A stretch of DNA of 54,889 nucleotides from Clostridia bacterium (GTDB taxonomy: Bacteria > Bacillota > Clostridia > Oscillospirales > CAG-272). Shown one piece after another: positions 40,351 through 46,952 of this stretch (positions within the stretch are counted from its first letter, which is position 1; each line of letters opens with the position of its first letter). The stretch spans positions 1-54,889 of the forward strand of contig JAFUNJ010000003.1 in assembly GCA_017482355.1 (NCBI GenBank). The letters run 5' to 3'. The notes below the pieces were generated by a model that saw only the letters and a program-made list of their open reading frames with translations, had not been told where the DNA came from and did not search any database. The position numbers were made by a program, and so were the translations under genes.

Positions 40351-42651
40351 CTACATAATATGCGAAAGAATGTTTTTCGTTACGGTTTTTACCGAAATTT
40401 TTTCGTTTTCTACGGAAATTACAAGAGAAACGCCATCTTTTTTTGACGGTAGGTTGGCAATGACCGCACCCTCGATCTCGGTTTTGATGAAGGAATATAT
40501 ATCACGCGCGCCACCGCTTCCGCATTTTGAGGCGGCGGTTATGACCTCAGGGCGTATCTCGACTGAAAGTCCGTTATCAGATAGGCGGGAGCGTAAGCCA
40601 TTAAGACGTTTTTCAGCTATTTTGTAAGCCGAATCGGTATCGAGCCGATCGAAGTTGACGATGCAGTCGAGCCGTCCGATGAGCTCGGGACTGAAAAAGT
40701 CCTTTGCACATTTGAGCTGACGTTCTCCTCCGATTGAGGTAAAGCCGACTGCGGCGGTATCTGACGAGCCGACGTTTGAGGTCAGAATGATAACGCAACC
40801 GCGGAAGTCGGCGCGCTTGCCTTGCGGATCGGTTATGAAGCCGTGATCTAGTATCTGAAGGAGCAGGGAAAACACGTCGCGGTCCGCTTTTTCGGCTTCG
40901 TCGAAAAGTACCACGGAATAGGGCTTGCTCCGCACCTCCTTGATGAGCAGCCCCTCGTCGCGGTAGCCGACGTAGCCGGGCGGCGAGCCAATTAGCCGCG
41001 ATAAGCTGTGCTTTTCGGAGTATTCGGACATATCAAGACGAATTATGGCATCGGAGCTTCCGTAAAACTGCTCGGCGATGGCACTTGCGAGCGCGGTCTT
41101 ACCGACCCCCGACGGACCTAAAAACATCATCGACGCGATCGGCGATACGCTTTCGTGAATGCCGAGAATACCCGCGCGAAGTGTGGAAGACACCGTTTTT
41201 ATGGCACTTTTTTGACCGAAAACTGCACTTAAAAGCCCGTTTTCGAGCCCAAAAAGGTCATTTTCAGACGGTAAACGGACGCTTCCTCGCCGCTTTTCGA
41301 GCACCTTTTCAATATCGGCGCGGACAAGCACAGGCGCATTTTCGTCGCGCTTCATTCCCTCAAGCCGCGCTTGGATATTTTTCTCGACTGCATGCGAGAG
41401 CTCGTCGTCTGCCTCGTTTAGTCCCTTGATGATTCCGCCGAGGAATTTCTTGTCCTCGCTTCTGCGCTCGATCTCGATATGCTTCGCGGACGCCGCCTCG
41501 TCAATGAGGTCTATCGCCTTATCGGGCAGACGCTTTGACGGAACGTAGCGCACTGACAGCTCGACCGCGGCGGAAATTGCGCCGTCGTCGATCAATACGC
41601 CGTGATGCTCCTCGTATTTTCCCTTGATGCCGCGAAGGATGCCTATTGCCTCGCTCCTTGTCGGCTCCTCGACAGTTATCGGTAAAAATCGGCGTTCAAG
41701 GGCGGGATCGCTTTCGATATGTCGGCGGTATTCGCTTACCGTCGTCGCGCCGATCAGCCGTATTTCACCGCGTGCCAGCGACGGCTTCATAATGCTTCCT
41801 GCATCGATAGCACCCTCCGAGGCGCCTGTACCGACTATCGTGTGAAGCTCGTCGATAAAAAGTATTATGTCAGGATCCTCCGATGCTTCAAGGAGGATCG
41901 TTTTCATTCGTTCTTCAAATTCACCACGGTATTTTGCACCCGATATTATCGCGGCAATATCGAGTGAAACTATTGCCTTGCCGAGTAAAAACGACGGCAC
42001 GCTTCCGTCTTTTATCCTGCTTGCAAGTCCCTCAACGACAGCAGTTTTTCCGACTCCGGGCTCGCCGATAAGGCAAGGGTTATTCTTTCTTCTTCGGCAG
42101 AGTGCTTCTATGAGCGCTTCAAGCTCGCTTTCGCGTCCGATAACGGGATCAAGCGTGCATTCACAGAGATTCTTGCCGTATTTCGTTATCGTCGGCGGCA
42201 GCTTTTTGCGTTCCTCGCTTCGCTTCACTGCCGTCTTTAAGGTGCTCAGGTCGGGAAGGATCTCACCGCCTGATCTGTGCTTTTCGATTATACGAACGGC
42301 AATGCTTTCCTTTTCGCTTAAGAGCGCTGACAAAAGCTGTTCCGTTCCTATTCTGCCGAATGCGCCGGGCATTTCCTTTGCGGCTCTTTCGATCACGCTC
42401 CGTAGGCGCGGAGTCATTTCGGGCGGCGGAATGGTTTTGCTTCCGCTTCCGTTAAGATAGGTAACTGCCTGCTTTACGTTTTTATAATCAAGCCCGTGCT
42501 TTTTTAAAATATCGGCAGCGACAGAGCTTTCCTCGCTGAGCAGACCGAGGAGAAGATGCTCGGTTCCGATATAGGTGTGTCCCATTTCCGACGCCTCGGT
42601 CTGCGCTCTTTTGAGCGCATTTTGCGCCGCAGGGGTGAAACGGCTCGTCAT
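40351..42651 (-). CDS. ClpC-type AAA+ ATPase
   Basis: 766 residues. Clp N-domain repeats (1-145), then AAA1 with Walker A GEPGVGKT (196-203) and Walker B IILFIDE (262-268), a middle stretch of about 55 residues (390-445), AAA2 with Walker A GPSGVGKT (512-519) and Walker [10 protein letters not shown]. The D2 loop after TSNVGSS carries AVGF, matching the VGF loop by which ClpC docks on ClpP. It unfolds proteins for ClpP or refolds them. The middle domain is shorter than usual for ClpC, and no mcsA/mcsB/ctsR genes are nearby, so this is not the standard stress-controlled clpC operon. GGAGG precedes the ATG; the preceding gene ends 53 bases upstream. Confidence 0.9.
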
Positions 42652-42704
42652 AATACCGCCTCCTACCGTTTTTTACTATTATTGACTGCGTTTTACCGCC
42701 GTAA

Positions 42705-43235
42705 TCAAAGCGGAACGCGGTGCTTTTCGTAGGCGAGGGCGAGGCGGTTCCAGGTCTCCTTATTTATTACTCCGTCTGTCGGTATGCCGTGAATGAATTG
42801 AAATTCTCTTACTGCGCGCTCGGTATCGAGGTCAAACACGTTATCGTCGTTCAGCTCCTCGCCGTATGGGTAGGATACTCCGAGTGCCTTCAGCATGATC
42901 TTTACGATCGTAATCAGCTCGCTTTTGTCGCCGACCTTTGTAACACCGTCCTTGAGCACCTGATCGAAGGGAGAAATGTTTTTGGGCGCGGATAGAATCA
43001 TATCGGCTTTTTCGTGCTCGGTGCTTAGCTTTCTGAAGGTCTCGTAATTCACTCTGCCGTCGGGGGTGAGACCATGCTTTTTCTGAAACGCGGTGACCGA
43101 TTCGACCGTTGTCGAGCCGTAGATCCCGTCGGGGTTTACTCTCGGAATATCGCGGTCTACGCGCGAGATATCGTATAGGTACACCTGTATTTGACGCACT
43201 GATTCCTTATAAAATGGCATTTCTGTATTCATCAT
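42705..43235 (-). CDS. Two-domain peptidoglycan-binding protein
   Basis: 176 residues with two PG_binding_1 domains: DGIYGSTTVESVTAFQKKHG (first, ~12-70) and FDLDTERAVREFQFIHG ... PTDGVINKETWNRL (second, ~95-170). No signal peptide and no catalytic domain. The start overlaps the stop of the upstream SpoIID-like gene (ATGA), so it is translationally coupled to it, and it probably acts with it on the spore cortex or germ cell wall. Confidence 0.9.
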   Translation of the reverse strand: MMNTEMPFYKESVRQIQVYLYDISRVDRDIPRVNPDGIYGSTTVESVTAFQKKHGLTPDGRVNYETFRKLSTEHEKADMILSAPKNISPFDQVLKDGVTKVGDKSELITIVKIMLKALGVSYPYGEELNDDNVFDLDTERAVREFQFIHGIPTDGVINKETWNRLALAYEKHRVPL

Positions 43236-44638
43236 AGCTGACTTCCTCCGTCTATTACGTAACCGGGAAATTGCGTAGGTGACGTTATTTCGCCTGATCT
43301 TATATCGGCGTAAAGGTCACCTATCGCCGTCCAGGTCGCAAGGTTTACTACTCCCGTTACGGGGAGTCCGACAAGATTCTGAACTGCAAGTACGGCGTTT
43401 CGTGTCTGTTCGTCGTAAACGCCGCTGTTGCCCGCCTCGGGAACCTCTGTGAACACCGTCGAAATTGCGTTCAGATAGGTTTGAAGCGGAACCATATAAT
43501 CACCGTCGAAGCCGAGCGTGATGAGAAAGCCGGGGTAGGGTCGGTAGGGCGCGAGAAGCTGATTATCGGGAAGCGACAGGATTATTGCGTTATATACGTC
43601 GAACATTCGGGCATAAGTGTTTTCGTCGATGATTCCCGTTTCCGGTATGCCGTAGGTTCTTTGAAAGCCGCGGACTGCTTGCTCGGTCTGAGAGTCGAAG
43701 ATGCCGTTGATTTCGACTGTGTTTACCGTGTCCTCGTACTGCGCTATGTAGTTTATCATATACTGGATCACTCTTATTTCATCGCCCTCGGCGCCGGGGG
43801 AGAGGGTGTTCGGAAAAATCTTTGGGATCTCGTTATAGGTGATCCCCTCGGACGATAGGTCGTTCAGGCGCTTTACGCTCGCGTATATCTGCTGGATTTT
43901 ATACCAGGTCGCACGCCCGACGATGCCGTCAACTGCGAGGTCGAATATACTTTGAAATTCGGTGACTGCGTCACGCGTTGCGACGTCGTAAAAGCCGTTT
44001 GGGTTCGGGATCTTCGGTATTGACGGAAAATTATTCGATATTCTGTTCAGCCGAAGCTGAACGAACGCGACGTCGTTACCTGTTGAGCCGAGGTTCAGGT
44101 TGCGGCGCGGCGCGGTCGTCGTTATTCCGCGTATCGGCGCATCGACGACGATGCTTATATCGTCTCCGTAGTATGTTTTGACGATCTCGACGGAGTTTTG
44201 CCCTTGCTCGGCGAGGCCGACACTGCCCCACTGAGATAAGCCGTTACAGGTTACGGTCGTGCCGTTACAGTACTGCGCGAAAAGCGGCTCAATGAAGCCG
44301 TCGCGGCGCAGGTAGTCGCTGAATATATCGTCTACTATGACTGAGACGGTATCGTATATATTTCTGCCGTTTATGAATGATTGGTCGATGGTAGTGGAGT
44401 TCGTTATGTCGAAGGGGTAACCGCGCGAACGGTAATATTCGGTATAGACACGGTTAAGGGCGAAGGATATCTGCGCGAGTATATTTGCGCGCAAGGAGCT
44501 TTCGGGCCAGGTTGGGTATATTTCGCTTGACGCAACGTTTTTTATGTAATCGGAGAAGGGGAGAGTGACGTTTTGCGCGTCGGCGTCCGGCTCGCCTAAA
44601 TGGACTGTTATGTTTTCGGGAATGTATGGGAAAGGCAT
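43232..44638 (-). CDS. SleC-like SpoIID and peptidoglycan-binding protein
   Basis: 468 residues from the ATG at 44638 (AGAGGTGATCT in front). Residues ~25-160 form a SpoIID-like lytic transglycosylase domain: PFSDYIKNVASSEIYPTWPE with candidate catalytic Glu39, SLRANILAQISFALNRVY, then CNGLSQWGSVGLAEQGQNSV and a TYYG ending, as in SpoIID/SleC. It is followed by three PG_binding_1 domains (~176-250, ~280-360, ~385-450). In C. difficile and C. perfringens SleC, a prodomain, SpoIID domain and binding domain are one chain that degrades spore cortex during germination. Here the N-terminal prodomain is a separate gene (44881). No signal peptide. Confidence 0.87.
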   Translation of the reverse strand: MPFPYIPENITVHLGEPDADAQNVTLPFSDYIKNVASSEIYPTWPESSLRANILAQISFALNRVYTEYYRSRGYPFDITNSTTIDQSFINGRNIYDTVSVIVDDIFSDYLRRDGFIEPLFAQYCNGTTVTCNGLSQWGSVGLAEQGQNSVEIVKTYYGDDISIVVDAPIRGITTTAPRRNLNLGSTGNDVAFVQLRLNRISNNFPSIPKIPNPNGFYDVATRDAVTEFQSIFDLAVDGIVGRATWYKIQQIYASVKRLNDLSSEGITYNEIPKIFPNTLSPGAEGDEIRVIQYMINYIAQYEDTVNTVEINGIFDSQTEQAVRGFQRTYGIPETGIIDENTYARMFDVYNAIILSLPDNQLLAPYRPYPGFLITLGFDGDYMVPLQTYLNAISTVFTEVPEAGNSGVYDEQTRNAVLAVQNLVGLPVTGVVNLATWTAIGDLYADIRSGEITSPTQFPGYVIDGGSQL

Positions 44639-44659
44639 TAGATCACCTCTGATAATTTT

Positions 44660-44880
44660 TTCGCATTTCTTTGCTCGTGCAAAGAAACGCTTGCAAAGAA
44701 ACACGCCAAGGAGACAACGGGCTTGAATTTTGCCTTCGCAAAATTCTGCACACGTTTTCTCCTTTGGAAACCTCTTTCGGTTTAAGGAAGATACGCCACG
44801 TTGTCTTGCCTTCCCCTCAGGGGAAGGTGTCTGCGACGAAGGAGCAGACGGATGAGGTGTTTTTTAGCAACGCAACCTCT
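44660..44880. repeat. Intergenic repeat between the two SleC-like genes
   Basis: About 220 bases with tandem and inverted motifs: CATTTCTTTGCTCGTGCAAA followed by GAAACGCTTGCAAAGAAACA, a TTTTGCCTTCGCAAAATT hairpin, a CCTTCCCCTCAGGGGAAGG hairpin, and GTCTGCGACGAAGGAGCAGAC. No gene is seen. This type of repeat is common between genes of gut Clostridia. Its position between the 131-aa gene and the SpoIID-like gene may reflect the breakpoint of a former SleC fusion. Confidence 0.7.
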
Positions 44881-45276
44881 TTATAAATTCGGCAACTCGC
44901 TATTCTCAAATCTCGTGAGGTCATTCGGCTGAAGCGTATTATCGCCGACGGCGATGGGAACGAGAAGCACCTGCTGTATTGCCGTTACGCCGTCGAAAAC
45001 GGGAATATTTGCGTTTACGACGTGGTAAAAGCCGTCCTTATCGGTGTCGATCGTATAGAAGCTTGAGACCTCGCCGCCGTCGACAACGAGTGAATTTTCC
45101 TTTGGCGGTGTCGGAAGCTCGATTATTTCTGACAGTCCTGCGTTATCTGTCAGCGTCACTGCAATGACCGTTCCCGTGTCCGACGAGCTTACCGTGACGA
45201 GCGCGCCCTCGACGGGAAGCGCACCACCTGCTGTTCTTACGTTTACTGTAATAAACCCTCTGCCTTGTTCTGCCAT
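44881..45276 (-). CDS. SleC prodomain-like protein (beta-sandwich)
   Basis: 131 residues. MAEQGRGFITVNVRTAGGAL PVEGALVTV-type opening, then strand-rich segments and LVVDGGEVSSFYTIDTDKDG, and a tail VAVGDNTLQPNDL-like with leucines and acidic residues. This is a carboxypeptidase-regulatory/transthyretin-like beta-sandwich and resembles the N-terminal prodomain of Clostridium SleC (opening of the type GxLTVxxxDxxxxxPIxGAxV). It has no signal peptide. GAAAGGAA precedes the ATG. It is first in the minus-strand group and diverges from spoIIAA; a spore-type promoter is possible upstream. Confidence 0.72.
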   Translation of the reverse strand: MAEQGRGFITVNVRTAGGALPVEGALVTVSSSDTGTVIAVTLTDNAGLSEIIELPTPPKENSLVVDGGEVSSFYTIDTDKDGFYHVVNANIPVFDGVTAIQQVLLVPIAVGDNTLQPNDLTRFENSELPNL

Positions 45277-45300
45277 GATTTCGTTCCTTTCGTTTTTTAC

Positions 45301-45329
45301 AGATTATGAAACGGCGGAAAAAATGTGAA
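45301..45329 (-). promoter_or_regulatory. Possible mother-cell sigma-E-type promoter
   Basis: Minus strand TTCACATT (45322-45329), 13-base spacer, CATAATCT (45301-45308), 24 bases upstream of the SleC prodomain-like gene. It resembles the sigma-E pattern (about ATATT, 14, CATACAnT) but is not a perfect match, and no strong TTGACA/TATAAT is seen for this gene. Weak evidence. Confidence 0.35.
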
Positions 45330-45415
45330 GGACAAACTTTTTTGATTCGCTGACCGAATATGACATTTTACGCGCTTGTATGGTAGTAAAATGTGCATAG
45401 AAAGGATGTGTGAAT

Positions 45416-45775
45416 ATGAACGGAAACGAACTCACAATAAATTATAAGCAGGTCAGCGTTGCGCTCGACGAGGATGGGGAATGCGTTTGCTATCTCCGCG
45501 GCGAGCTTGATCATCACAGCGTAAAGGAGATACGCGAGGTGATTGACTCCAAGCTGATAGATTACCGTCCAATGAGCGTTATTTTCGATCTCAGCGAGGT
45601 GACCTTTACCGATTCCGCGGGTCTCGGGCTTGTCCTCGGCAGATACACGAGGGTGAACGGTTACGGCGGAAAGCTTATGCTTATAAGCGTTCCCGACGAT
45701 TTTATGAAGATCCTGCGTCTGTCGGGGGCTGACAGATTTTTAACCATACGCGGTCGCGGCAACAAGACTGCATAA
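45416..45775 (+). CDS. spoIIAA: Anti-anti-sigma factor SpoIIAA
   Basis: 119 residues, STAS fold. LRGELDHHSVKEIRE and VIFDLSEVTFTDSAGLGLVL, where S67 in DSAG is the site phosphorylated by SpoIIAB (Ser58 in Bacillus). It binds SpoIIAB when unphosphorylated and frees sigma-F in the forespore. ATG at 45416 has AAAGGAT upstream; a GTG six bases earlier is also in frame. First gene of the spoIIA operon. Confidence 0.95.
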   Translation: MNGNELTINYKQVSVALDEDGECVCYLRGELDHHSVKEIREVIDSKLIDYRPMSVIFDLSEVTFTDSAGLGLVLGRYTRVNGYGGKLMLISVPDDFMKILRLSGADRFLTIRGRGNKTA

Positions 45776-45807
45776 TCCTGCCTTCGGGCAGTACATAGGA
45801 GAAAGAT

Positions 45808-46239
45808 ATGAAAAAGACACTTATAAATAAAATGAAGACCGTTTTTGACAGCGATTCGCGCAACGAAAGCTTTGCGCGTTATGCGGTGACTGCGTTTATT
45901 GCGCGGCTTGACCCTGACGTTGGTGAGCTTGCCGACATAAGGACCGCAGTTTCTGAGGCGGTAACGAACGCGATAATTCACGGCTATAAGAGCAAAGAGG
46001 GAAGCGTAGTAGTTGAGGTCAGGATCTATTCCGACAGGAGCGTCAGAATTACCGTCAGCGATCGCGGATGCGGTATAGAGGACATTGAGCAGGCGAAGTT
46101 GCCGCTGTTTACGACCGACGAAAGCGGTGAGCGCGGCGGTATGGGCTTTGCTATTATGGAGAGCTTTTCTGACCGTCTTAAGGTCAGGTCGGTCCTCGGA
46201 CGCGGAACGACGGTCACGATGACAAAGAAGCTGAAATGA
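45808..46239 (+). CDS. spoIIAB: Anti-sigma-F kinase SpoIIAB
   Basis: 143 residues. GHKL kinase fold: VSEAVTNAIIHGY (N box), VSDRGCGIED (G1), GERGGMGFAIMESFSD (G2 lid region). It binds sigma-F and phosphorylates SpoIIAA. GGAGAAAGAT precedes the ATG; the stop overlaps the sigF start (ATGA). Confidence 0.95.
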   Translation: MKKTLINKMKTVFDSDSRNESFARYAVTAFIARLDPDVGELADIRTAVSEAVTNAIIHGYKSKEGSVVVEVRIYSDRSVRITVSDRGCGIEDIEQAKLPLFTTDESGERGGMGFAIMESFSDRLKVRSVLGRGTTVTMTKKLK

Positions 46240-46952
46240 CGCGAGAGGAAAACATTGAGCTTGTAAAAGCCGCACAGGCGGGCGATCCTACGGCGCTCGA
46301 TACTCTCGTTTCGCAAAATATGGGTCTATGCAAAAGTATTGCGGTCAGATTCATGAATCGCGGAGTCGAGTACGACGATCTCGTTCAGCTTGCGTCTGTC
46401 GGTATGATAAAGGCGGTAAGGAGCTTTGATACCTCCTTCGGAACTGCCTTTTCGACCTACGCCGTTCCTCTCATAATCGGCGAGATACGGCGCTTTTTGC
46501 GCGACGACGGAATAGTCAAGGTCGGGCGGAATATCAAGCGCATAGGTACTGACGCTATGAAGAAAAAGGAGGAGTTTCTCCGCGAGCACGGGCGCGAGCC
46601 GAAGATGAGTGAGCTTTCAGAGCTTTGCGGCGTTCCGGTCGAGGAGCTTGTTTCTGCCCTTGACGCATCTTGTCCCGTTAAGTCGATCTACGAGCCGGTT
46701 GGAAGCGACAGTGACGGCGCATGTCTATGCGATCTTCTTTCCGATGACAGCGACGAGATCGGAAAGACGACCGATAAAATCGCTCTTGCCGAAGCCCTCA
46801 AAGCTCTGCCGGAAACGCAGAGAAAGCTTATATATTTAAGGTACGTAAAGGAAATGTCGCAGGCGAATACGGGACGCATTTTAGGTATGACGCAGGTCAA
46901 GGTATCGCGCGAGGAGAAGAAGATCATTGAGGCGCTGAGACGTGCTTTGTAG
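46236..46952 (+). CDS. sigF: Forespore sigma factor SigF
   Basis: 238 residues. Region 2: YDDLVQLASVGMIKAVRSFD, then FSTYAVPLIIGEIRRFLRDDG, the hallmark of SigF/SigG/SigB-type factors; region 3 (REPKMSELSELCGVPVEEL) and region 4 with YLRYVKEMSQANTGRILGMT and QVKVSREEKKI. The operon context and ATGA coupling to spoIIAB make it SigF rather than SigG. It drives early forespore genes. Confidence 0.96.
   Translation: MTREENIELVKAAQAGDPTALDTLVSQNMGLCKSIAVRFMNRGVEYDDLVQLASVGMIKAVRSFDTSFGTAFSTYAVPLIIGEIRRFLRDDGIVKVGRNIKRIGTDAMKKKEEFLREHGREPKMSELSELCGVPVEELVSALDASCPVKSIYEPVGSDSDGACLCDLLSDDSDEIGKTTDKIALAEALKALPETQRKLIYLRYVKEMSQANTGRILGMTQVKVSREEKKIIEALRRAL

Follow-up and report, generated by a model that had tools for sequence, protein, structure and literature searches.

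A two-gene SleC-family cortex enzyme in Clostridia, with its beta-domain on a separate gene and no Csp protease found

What restrains a spore cortex-lytic enzyme, and what sets it off, when its N-terminal domain is encoded by a gene of its own? In the accepted clostridial model, SleC is a zymogen that is cut by Csp proteases. We ask the question at a locus of a Clostridia bacterium (GTDB: Oscillospirales, CAG-272; assembly GCA_017482355.1), in contig JAFUNJ010000003.1, positions 1 to 54,889 of the forward strand; "the window" below is this whole stretch of 54,889 nucleotides. A sequence-only reading of it had proposed that the prodomain region and the catalytic part of SleC lie here on separate genes, and they do: three open reading frames (ORFs) follow one another on the minus strand from 45276 down to 42705, with the boundaries given in that reading. 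By a small margin of confidence, we favor the view that the locus encodes a SleC-family cortex lytic transglycosylase that is associated with GerA and independent of Csp; its beta-domain would act in trans, mainly as an adaptor that places or holds the enzyme. Homology, gene order, the single clade, the absence of the pro-linker and of Csp, the association with GerA and the near-exclusion with strong SleB are established at the level of sequence comparison. The features of the locus are as follows.

44881-45276, minus strand: free beta-domain protein (131 amino acids), homologue of the SleC PRE domain (split-family profile matches, AlphaFold2 model)
43232-44638, minus strand: enzyme (468 amino acids), a SpoIID-like lytic transglycosylase domain followed by three peptidoglycan (PG)-binding domains (Pfam, PDB match, catalytic alignment)
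44522-44524, minus strand: codon of the candidate catalytic residue Glu39 (conserved Glu column)
42705-43235, minus strand: double PG-binding protein (176 amino acids; Pfam), its gene overlapping that of the enzyme by 4 bp
45300-45327, minus strand: promoter-like site of sporulation type (-35 element CAC at 45325-45327, -10 element CATAATCTG at 45300-45308)
44639-44880, minus strand: structured spacer of 242 bp, present only in this species group among the loci compared (folding, spacing comparison)

Are these proteins SleC homologues? For the 468 amino acid enzyme the answer is direct. Its residues 4-261 match PDB entry 9h68 ("spore cortex-lytic enzyme pre-pro-form") with E=4.6e-68, the best PDB match by a wide margin, while Pfam places a SpoIID domain exactly at the cut-off (23 bits) and three PG_binding_1 domains. 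The proposed catalytic Glu39 is well borne out by conservation: its column holds Glu in 175 of 177 sequences, comprising 65/67 split enzymes, 19/19 long one-chain forms and 91/91 short canonical SleC chains (among the long forms are L104, whose 333 amino acid ORF ends prematurely, and L097, truncated at a contig end; the canonical forms include L245, an ORF of 245 amino acids). The catalytic alignment picks up at residue 217 of 9h68, so that the chain would begin at about the position of mature SleC, without a pro-linker. As to the gene start, the longest ORF opens farther upstream at a GTG, but AGAGGTGA stands ahead of the ATG at 44638. The 176 amino acid protein carries two PG-binding domains (Pfam), its gene is coupled to that of the enzyme by the overlap, as had been noticed from the sequence, and 46 of 55 split loci have a similar gene immediately after that of the enzyme. 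We considered whether it corresponds to the C-terminal end of the long forms and rejected this, as its profile fits several PG repeats and has no unique place. No Hydrolase_2 fold, that of SleB and CwlJ, was found by Pfam in these proteins, and by eye a signal peptide is seen in neither the 131 nor the 468 amino acid protein.

The 131 amino acid protein needs a profile to be recognized. Taken as a single sequence it reaches 9h68 with E=0.07, which is not significant, and an unrelated methyltransferase scores E=0.0013. A profile of 23 relatives encoded by separate genes, however, matches residues 60-182 of 9h68 with E=1.6e-17 (next PDB entry, 0.04), and hhalign of the split-only profile against 25 canonical SleC N-termini gives 99.9% and E=3.8e-32 over 110 columns. 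Both comparisons used split-only profiles; the beta-domain profile of the locus surveys combined split and fused forms. The claim that both proteins are homologous to SleC therefore holds, for this one at the profile level, where an HHpred-type search returned the SleC match. The AlphaFold2 model has a beta-rich fold with a mean predicted local distance difference test score of 89.5 and low confidence after residue 110; it was built on an alignment of 37 canonical relatives, a possible source of bias in the fold.

Which part of SleC is it? According to the account of C. difficile SleC in PMC6464247, YabG cuts preproSleC at SRQS, after R119, during spore formation, and CspB takes off the inhibitory pro part at germination. 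The stretch of 9h68 aligned to the split family closes with SRQSELIF, just past SRQS. By this alignment, the 131 amino acid protein is the PRE domain, which in C. difficile is removed by YabG, rather than the PRO part removed by Csp. Approximately 34 residues of 9h68 between the beta-domain and catalytic alignments have no counterpart in the window; judged from the same comparison, the PRO region that follows PRE and is removed by CspB is absent here. The earlier suggestion that a separate prodomain changes how the enzyme is kept inactive thus survives in part: linker and Csp are both missing, but the free protein is PRE and not the Csp-removed PRO. The free protein may nevertheless inhibit in trans, although the homologous domain is not known for such a role.

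Is the arrangement peculiar to this genome? We surveyed 98 genomes of relatives from 84 genera and an order-wide sample of 394 genomes; the two samples overlap. A genome was counted as enzyme-positive if it matched the 468 amino acid protein at E < 1e-50, and the enzyme, SleB and GerA lists were read off by hand. A SleC-type catalytic domain occurs in 63 of the 98 relatives: 55 have the split pair, six a one-chain form other than the short canonical one, and four the short canonical form, two of these (G048, G054) together with the split pair. All 55 split pairs are same-strand neighbors. Wider sampling added 12 more, and in each of the resulting 67 split loci the beta-domain gene is the upstream same-strand neighbor. 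From its stop to the enzyme domain the median distance is 23 nt (at most 60 nt in 60/67), and only the window, G002 and G007 exceed 100 nt. The 67 loci span nine families (f1, f10, f11, f13, f14, f18, f21, f23, f26), so a local oddity or an assembly artefact is rejected, and the check proposed with the sequence-only reading, for the same gene pair in related genomes, has a positive outcome. The split arrangement occurs in dozens of related genera. No publication on a split SleC was found among the open-licence papers searched.

Such constant pairing bears on the idea that the 131 amino acid protein has a role of its own, as a coat or other spore protein, and is only co-transcribed with the enzyme without ever contacting it. 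One genome (G055, locus L106) keeps the beta-domain gene after its enzyme gene has gone, and the domain is weakly matched at the end of Amidase_3 proteins, as would suit an independent protein. Against this, no split enzyme of the 67 lacks a beta-domain neighbor, the genes are tightly spaced, and the one-chain forms compared (91 canonical, 19 long) all carry the domain covalently. We regard an independent protein as very unlikely. The Amidase_3 matches (L101:4875-5828 and L260:3619-4566) lie at the C-terminal end of the protein, next to canonical sleC and csp.

A tree of the three forms places the 65 split rows in one clade (SH-like approximate likelihood ratio test, 99.5) and the 41 canonical rows in another (99), with 18 long rows between them. 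It comes from a quick search without bootstrap, and leaves out L096 and L103 for their very long branches, L104 and L245 because they are short, and two-thirds of the named canonical rows; an earlier 102-row tree agrees, except for L103. Because the split enzymes form one clade and the long forms lie between them and the canonical ones, the topology fits a single division of the SleC chain in a long, SleC2-like ancestor. On this evidence the split is an old fission kept across nine families, and is not peculiar to the source genome. The long forms scanned have 4-6 PG-binding domains in 10 of 11 cases, the exception (L098) having two plus four LysM. Canonical SleC is one chain at 75 of 80 named loci; of the other five, three reach the start of the contig frame, L185 has no beta-domain in its ORF, and L205 has an in-frame stop. 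At L205 (4500-5777), the canonical sleC of a Lachnospiraceae metagenome-assembled genome (MAG) is broken by this one stop between linker and catalytic domain.

Could Csp still be the switch? Canonical forms have a conserved linker between beta-domain and catalytic domain, typically PHTLYGxYPPKIPExExKP...GEIVLSRVVIPEYIVVHDG. A short regular expression for its core, applied within 45 residues before the catalytic domain, finds it in 89 of 91 canonical forms (the two missed look like near-variants), in 0 of 67 split enzymes and in 0 of 19 long forms; it also matches one of 55 split beta-protein tails. For the protease itself we used a profile of six Csp proteins, of which one was checked and has Csp structures as its best known matches (CspB, 4i0w, E=1.4e-89). 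Strong matches (503-921 bits) occur in four of the 98 relatives; these are precisely the four that have short canonical SleC, and Csp lies beside it. Twelve genomes match at 1e-10, but eight of them only at 57 bits or less, which we read as other S8 proteases. Genomes were searched for 42 of the 80 named canonical loci, and 41 of these contain Csp, the exception being a 1.0-Mb MAG. Order-wide, Csp occurs in 18 of 394 genomes, all of them among the 195 with a beta-domain. The canonical linker motif is present in 16 of the 18; in G254 the gene is interrupted and its linker end resembles the canonical one, and in G274 the form examined was a long one.

By contrast, the profile search finds Csp in none of the 59 split-only or long-only genomes, the source genome included. 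One might object that the enzyme is an ordinary Csp-activated SleC and that csp genes are missing merely through incomplete assembly, the source genome being 77.5% complete. Many of the 59 genomes are more than 94% complete, however (the congeners G002, G005 and G006, at 94-96%, also have no Csp), and there is no linker for Csp to cut, which makes this explanation hardly credible and Csp cleavage an unlikely switch, as had been supposed. The only S8 protease of the source genome was considered as a Csp and rejected; it is a subtilisin (L108:5104-7818, contig C7) with, by eye, repeated GDVNGDGKAD-like blocks, deseasin-like and not Csp.

Did the split itself abolish zymogen control? It probably did not, and in this the sequence-only reading has to be revised. 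Because the nearest unsplit relatives, the long forms, have no pro-linker and mostly no Csp (17 of 19 of their genomes are without it), the zymogen device was probably gone before the chain was divided. We dropped the absence of YabG as the cause of the split. YabG (PF05582) is found in none of the 98 relatives, but it is also missing from 40 of the 42 canonical-SleC genomes searched (present in two), and the account in PMC6464247 describes it as present in all spore formers.

If Csp is not the switch, the free domain might take its place. The 131 amino acid protein could block the active site in the dormant spore and be released or degraded upon a germination signal. The pairing of genes in 67 of 67 split enzymes would be expected of such a trans-inhibitor, as would an enzyme without a pro-linker, otherwise made in its mature form. 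Several observations speak against it. The homologous C. difficile domain is PRE, removed via YabG in sporulation, whereas the part that inhibits is PRO, cut by CspB (described in PMC6464247). In the long one-chain relatives the domain stays attached and the linker motif is absent (0/19), and their genomes mostly lack Csp (17/19); removal of the domain may thus not be the switch. Finally, at some loci the domain has long low-complexity tails. These were seen at five loci in three families, on separate beta-domain proteins whose N-terminal tails measure roughly 160-390 amino acids:

L273, 3631-4797: beta-domain protein with low-complexity N-terminal tail
L274, 5191-6351: beta-domain protein with low-complexity N-terminal tail
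L276, 5146-6681: beta-domain protein with low-complexity N-terminal tail
L281, 4092-5450: beta-domain protein with low-complexity N-terminal tail
L070, 5252-6550: beta-domain protein with low-complexity N-terminal tail

We consider the trans-inhibitor unlikely. An adaptor or holder is the more likely role by analogy, since the domain stays attached in the long forms without a linker and mostly without Csp, since PRE is cut off early in C. difficile, and since it bears long low-complexity tails at five loci. We also considered the tails as an enzyme domain and rejected this; they have no Pfam match and are of low complexity. By eye, a short stretch resembling KYKEEMMRLYSKS recurs in L070, L273, L274 and L276, close to where the protein probably starts; it is perhaps a targeting element.

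When would the enzyme act? Of 53 split loci (the near-copies L041 and L042 were excluded), 47 have a CATAnnnT box in the 170 nt ahead of the beta-domain, against 10 expected and a maximum of 19 over 200 simulations. In most cases an (A/C)(A/C)C element stands 17-19 nt farther upstream. The box precedes the enzyme domain in only five of 53 (7.7 expected) and canonical sleC in 49 of 75 (20 expected). Loose sigma-K and sigma-E patterns match 13 of 53 (1.6 expected) and 11 of 53 (2.8 expected), and stricter sigma-E and sigma-G patterns none of the 53 each. Going by the sigma-K and sigma-E consensus, we read the site before the beta-domain gene as a mother-cell type promoter of the operon.

The site, together with the Pfam domain name SpoIID, might suggest that the enzyme works in spore formation (cortex trimming, or engulfment as for SpoIID) or in mother-cell lysis. 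Yet canonical sleC has a similar site and is a germination enzyme, and the best PDB match of the 468 amino acid protein is SleC. The distribution of other germination genes points the same way. In the home family, GerA accompanies the enzyme in 48 of 52 genomes and is present in one of the eight that lack the enzyme (p 6e-6, phylogeny ignored). Strong SleB, defined as Hydrolase_2 of at least 110 bits, occurs in one of 63 genomes with the enzyme and in 20 of 35 without it (p 1.6e-10, phylogeny ignored). A role outside germination seems to us improbable. The best Hydrolase_2 matches in the home family score 27-108 bits, weaker than the SleB of most sister families.

Genomes in which canonical SleC and Csp accompany a split locus are also informative. 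In the three such home-family genomes, the split enzyme has lost Glu39 (L096 and L103, in G048 and G054) or its gene is gone (L106, in G055), which would fit a replacement of the split enzyme by the canonical system; G053 has no split locus in the survey data. Loss of Glu39 is thus seen in two of five split enzymes in Csp-positive genomes and in none of 62 in Csp-negative ones.

Put together, the favored adaptor or holder reading would run as follows. From a mother-cell-type sporulation promoter, the free beta-domain protein, the catalytic chain and, usually, the extra PG-binding protein would be made in this order. The first two would reach the forespore surface, where the beta-domain protein may bind the enzyme or a spore structure in trans and so place or hold the enzyme. 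The enzyme would degrade the cortex during germination, activated downstream of GerA by a non-Csp step, e.g., the release of calcium dipicolinate or access to the substrate.

Several points weigh against this picture. The adaptor role of the beta-domain is drawn from the tails and from analogy. Three Csp-positive genomes of f13 and f14 (G169, G268, G321) keep a split enzyme with Glu39 beside canonical SleC, so loss after replacement is not general. At L246 (G202, which holds both a long and a canonical form) the long form adjoins two csp genes, in G274 Csp and a long form occur in one genome, and open-frame lengths suggest the same for G215, G242 and G270. The 110-bit SleB threshold was chosen after the data were seen, the co-occurrence tests ignore phylogeny, and the genome lists were hand-read. 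The source genome, moreover, is just 77.5% complete.

Some features of the window stand apart from these questions. The spacer 44639-44880 is unusual, as genes are tightly spaced at the other split loci. It had been described as a repeat-rich gap of 243 bp; a spacer exists, but it measures 242 bp, and no second copy of it was found within the window. Its predicted folding is -90.2 kcal/mol (z -5.6), its sequence is partly common to the congeners G002 and G007 only among the loci compared, and an Rfam scan of 42600-45500 gave no match at E up to 1. Named from sequence, the same-strand neighbor at 40351-42651 reads as a ClpC-type ATPase, and the divergent ORFs at 45410-46952 as spoIIAA, spoIIAB and sigF.

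What would this mean beyond one locus? Order-wide, Csp is missing from 177 of the 195 genomes with a SleC beta-domain, and so is the linker from those Csp-less forms that were examined. Because of this, another way to restrain and start cortex lysis probably exists in many spore formers. It is tempting to extend the scheme to many Clostridia, across dozens of genera, as a mature, non-zymogen SleC-family enzyme controlled by a partner in trans, with GerA upstream and with neither Csp nor proteolysis; we hold this extension to be a shade more doubtful than probable. If true, it would be a second regulatory logic for clostridial cortex hydrolysis. The two-gene form also opens the role of the PRE domain, which is little understood, to direct testing, because the domain can be taken away or supplied again as a separate protein.

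How does the system compare with known ones? It shares with SleC (9h68) a homologous beta-domain, the SpoIID-like catalytic domain with its conserved Glu, and the first PG-binding domain, and the promoter-like sites are similar. Canonical SleC, however, is one chain, whereas here beta-domain and catalytic chain are on separate genes; it has a pro-linker and Csp, neither of which was found at the split locus or in the source genome, and one PG-binding domain in the matched region, as against three plus two. The split enzymes also form a clade separate from it. Going by the published description, the system also resembles SleC2a/SleC2b, which C. botulinum Group II has as its second SleC-like protein and which PMC5083711 describes as SpoIID/LytB with 4-5 PG-binding domains in about 698-792 amino acids; the authors there hold that its function merits study. 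The split trio totals 775 amino acids with three plus two PG-binding domains. SleC2a/b is one chain, however, and at least four PG-binding domains are reached here only across two chains. In our trees, which contain no C. botulinum sequence, the split enzymes group with the SleC2-like long forms rather than with canonical SleC. SleB/YpeB and CwlJ likely share the job of the split system, cortex hydrolysis after germinant sensing. SleB and CwlJ have the Hydrolase_2 fold, unlike the split proteins, and strong SleB is nearly exclusive with the split-type enzyme; like the partner envisaged here for the split enzyme, a separate protein, YpeB, is needed by SleB for its localization (as stated in PMC5083711).

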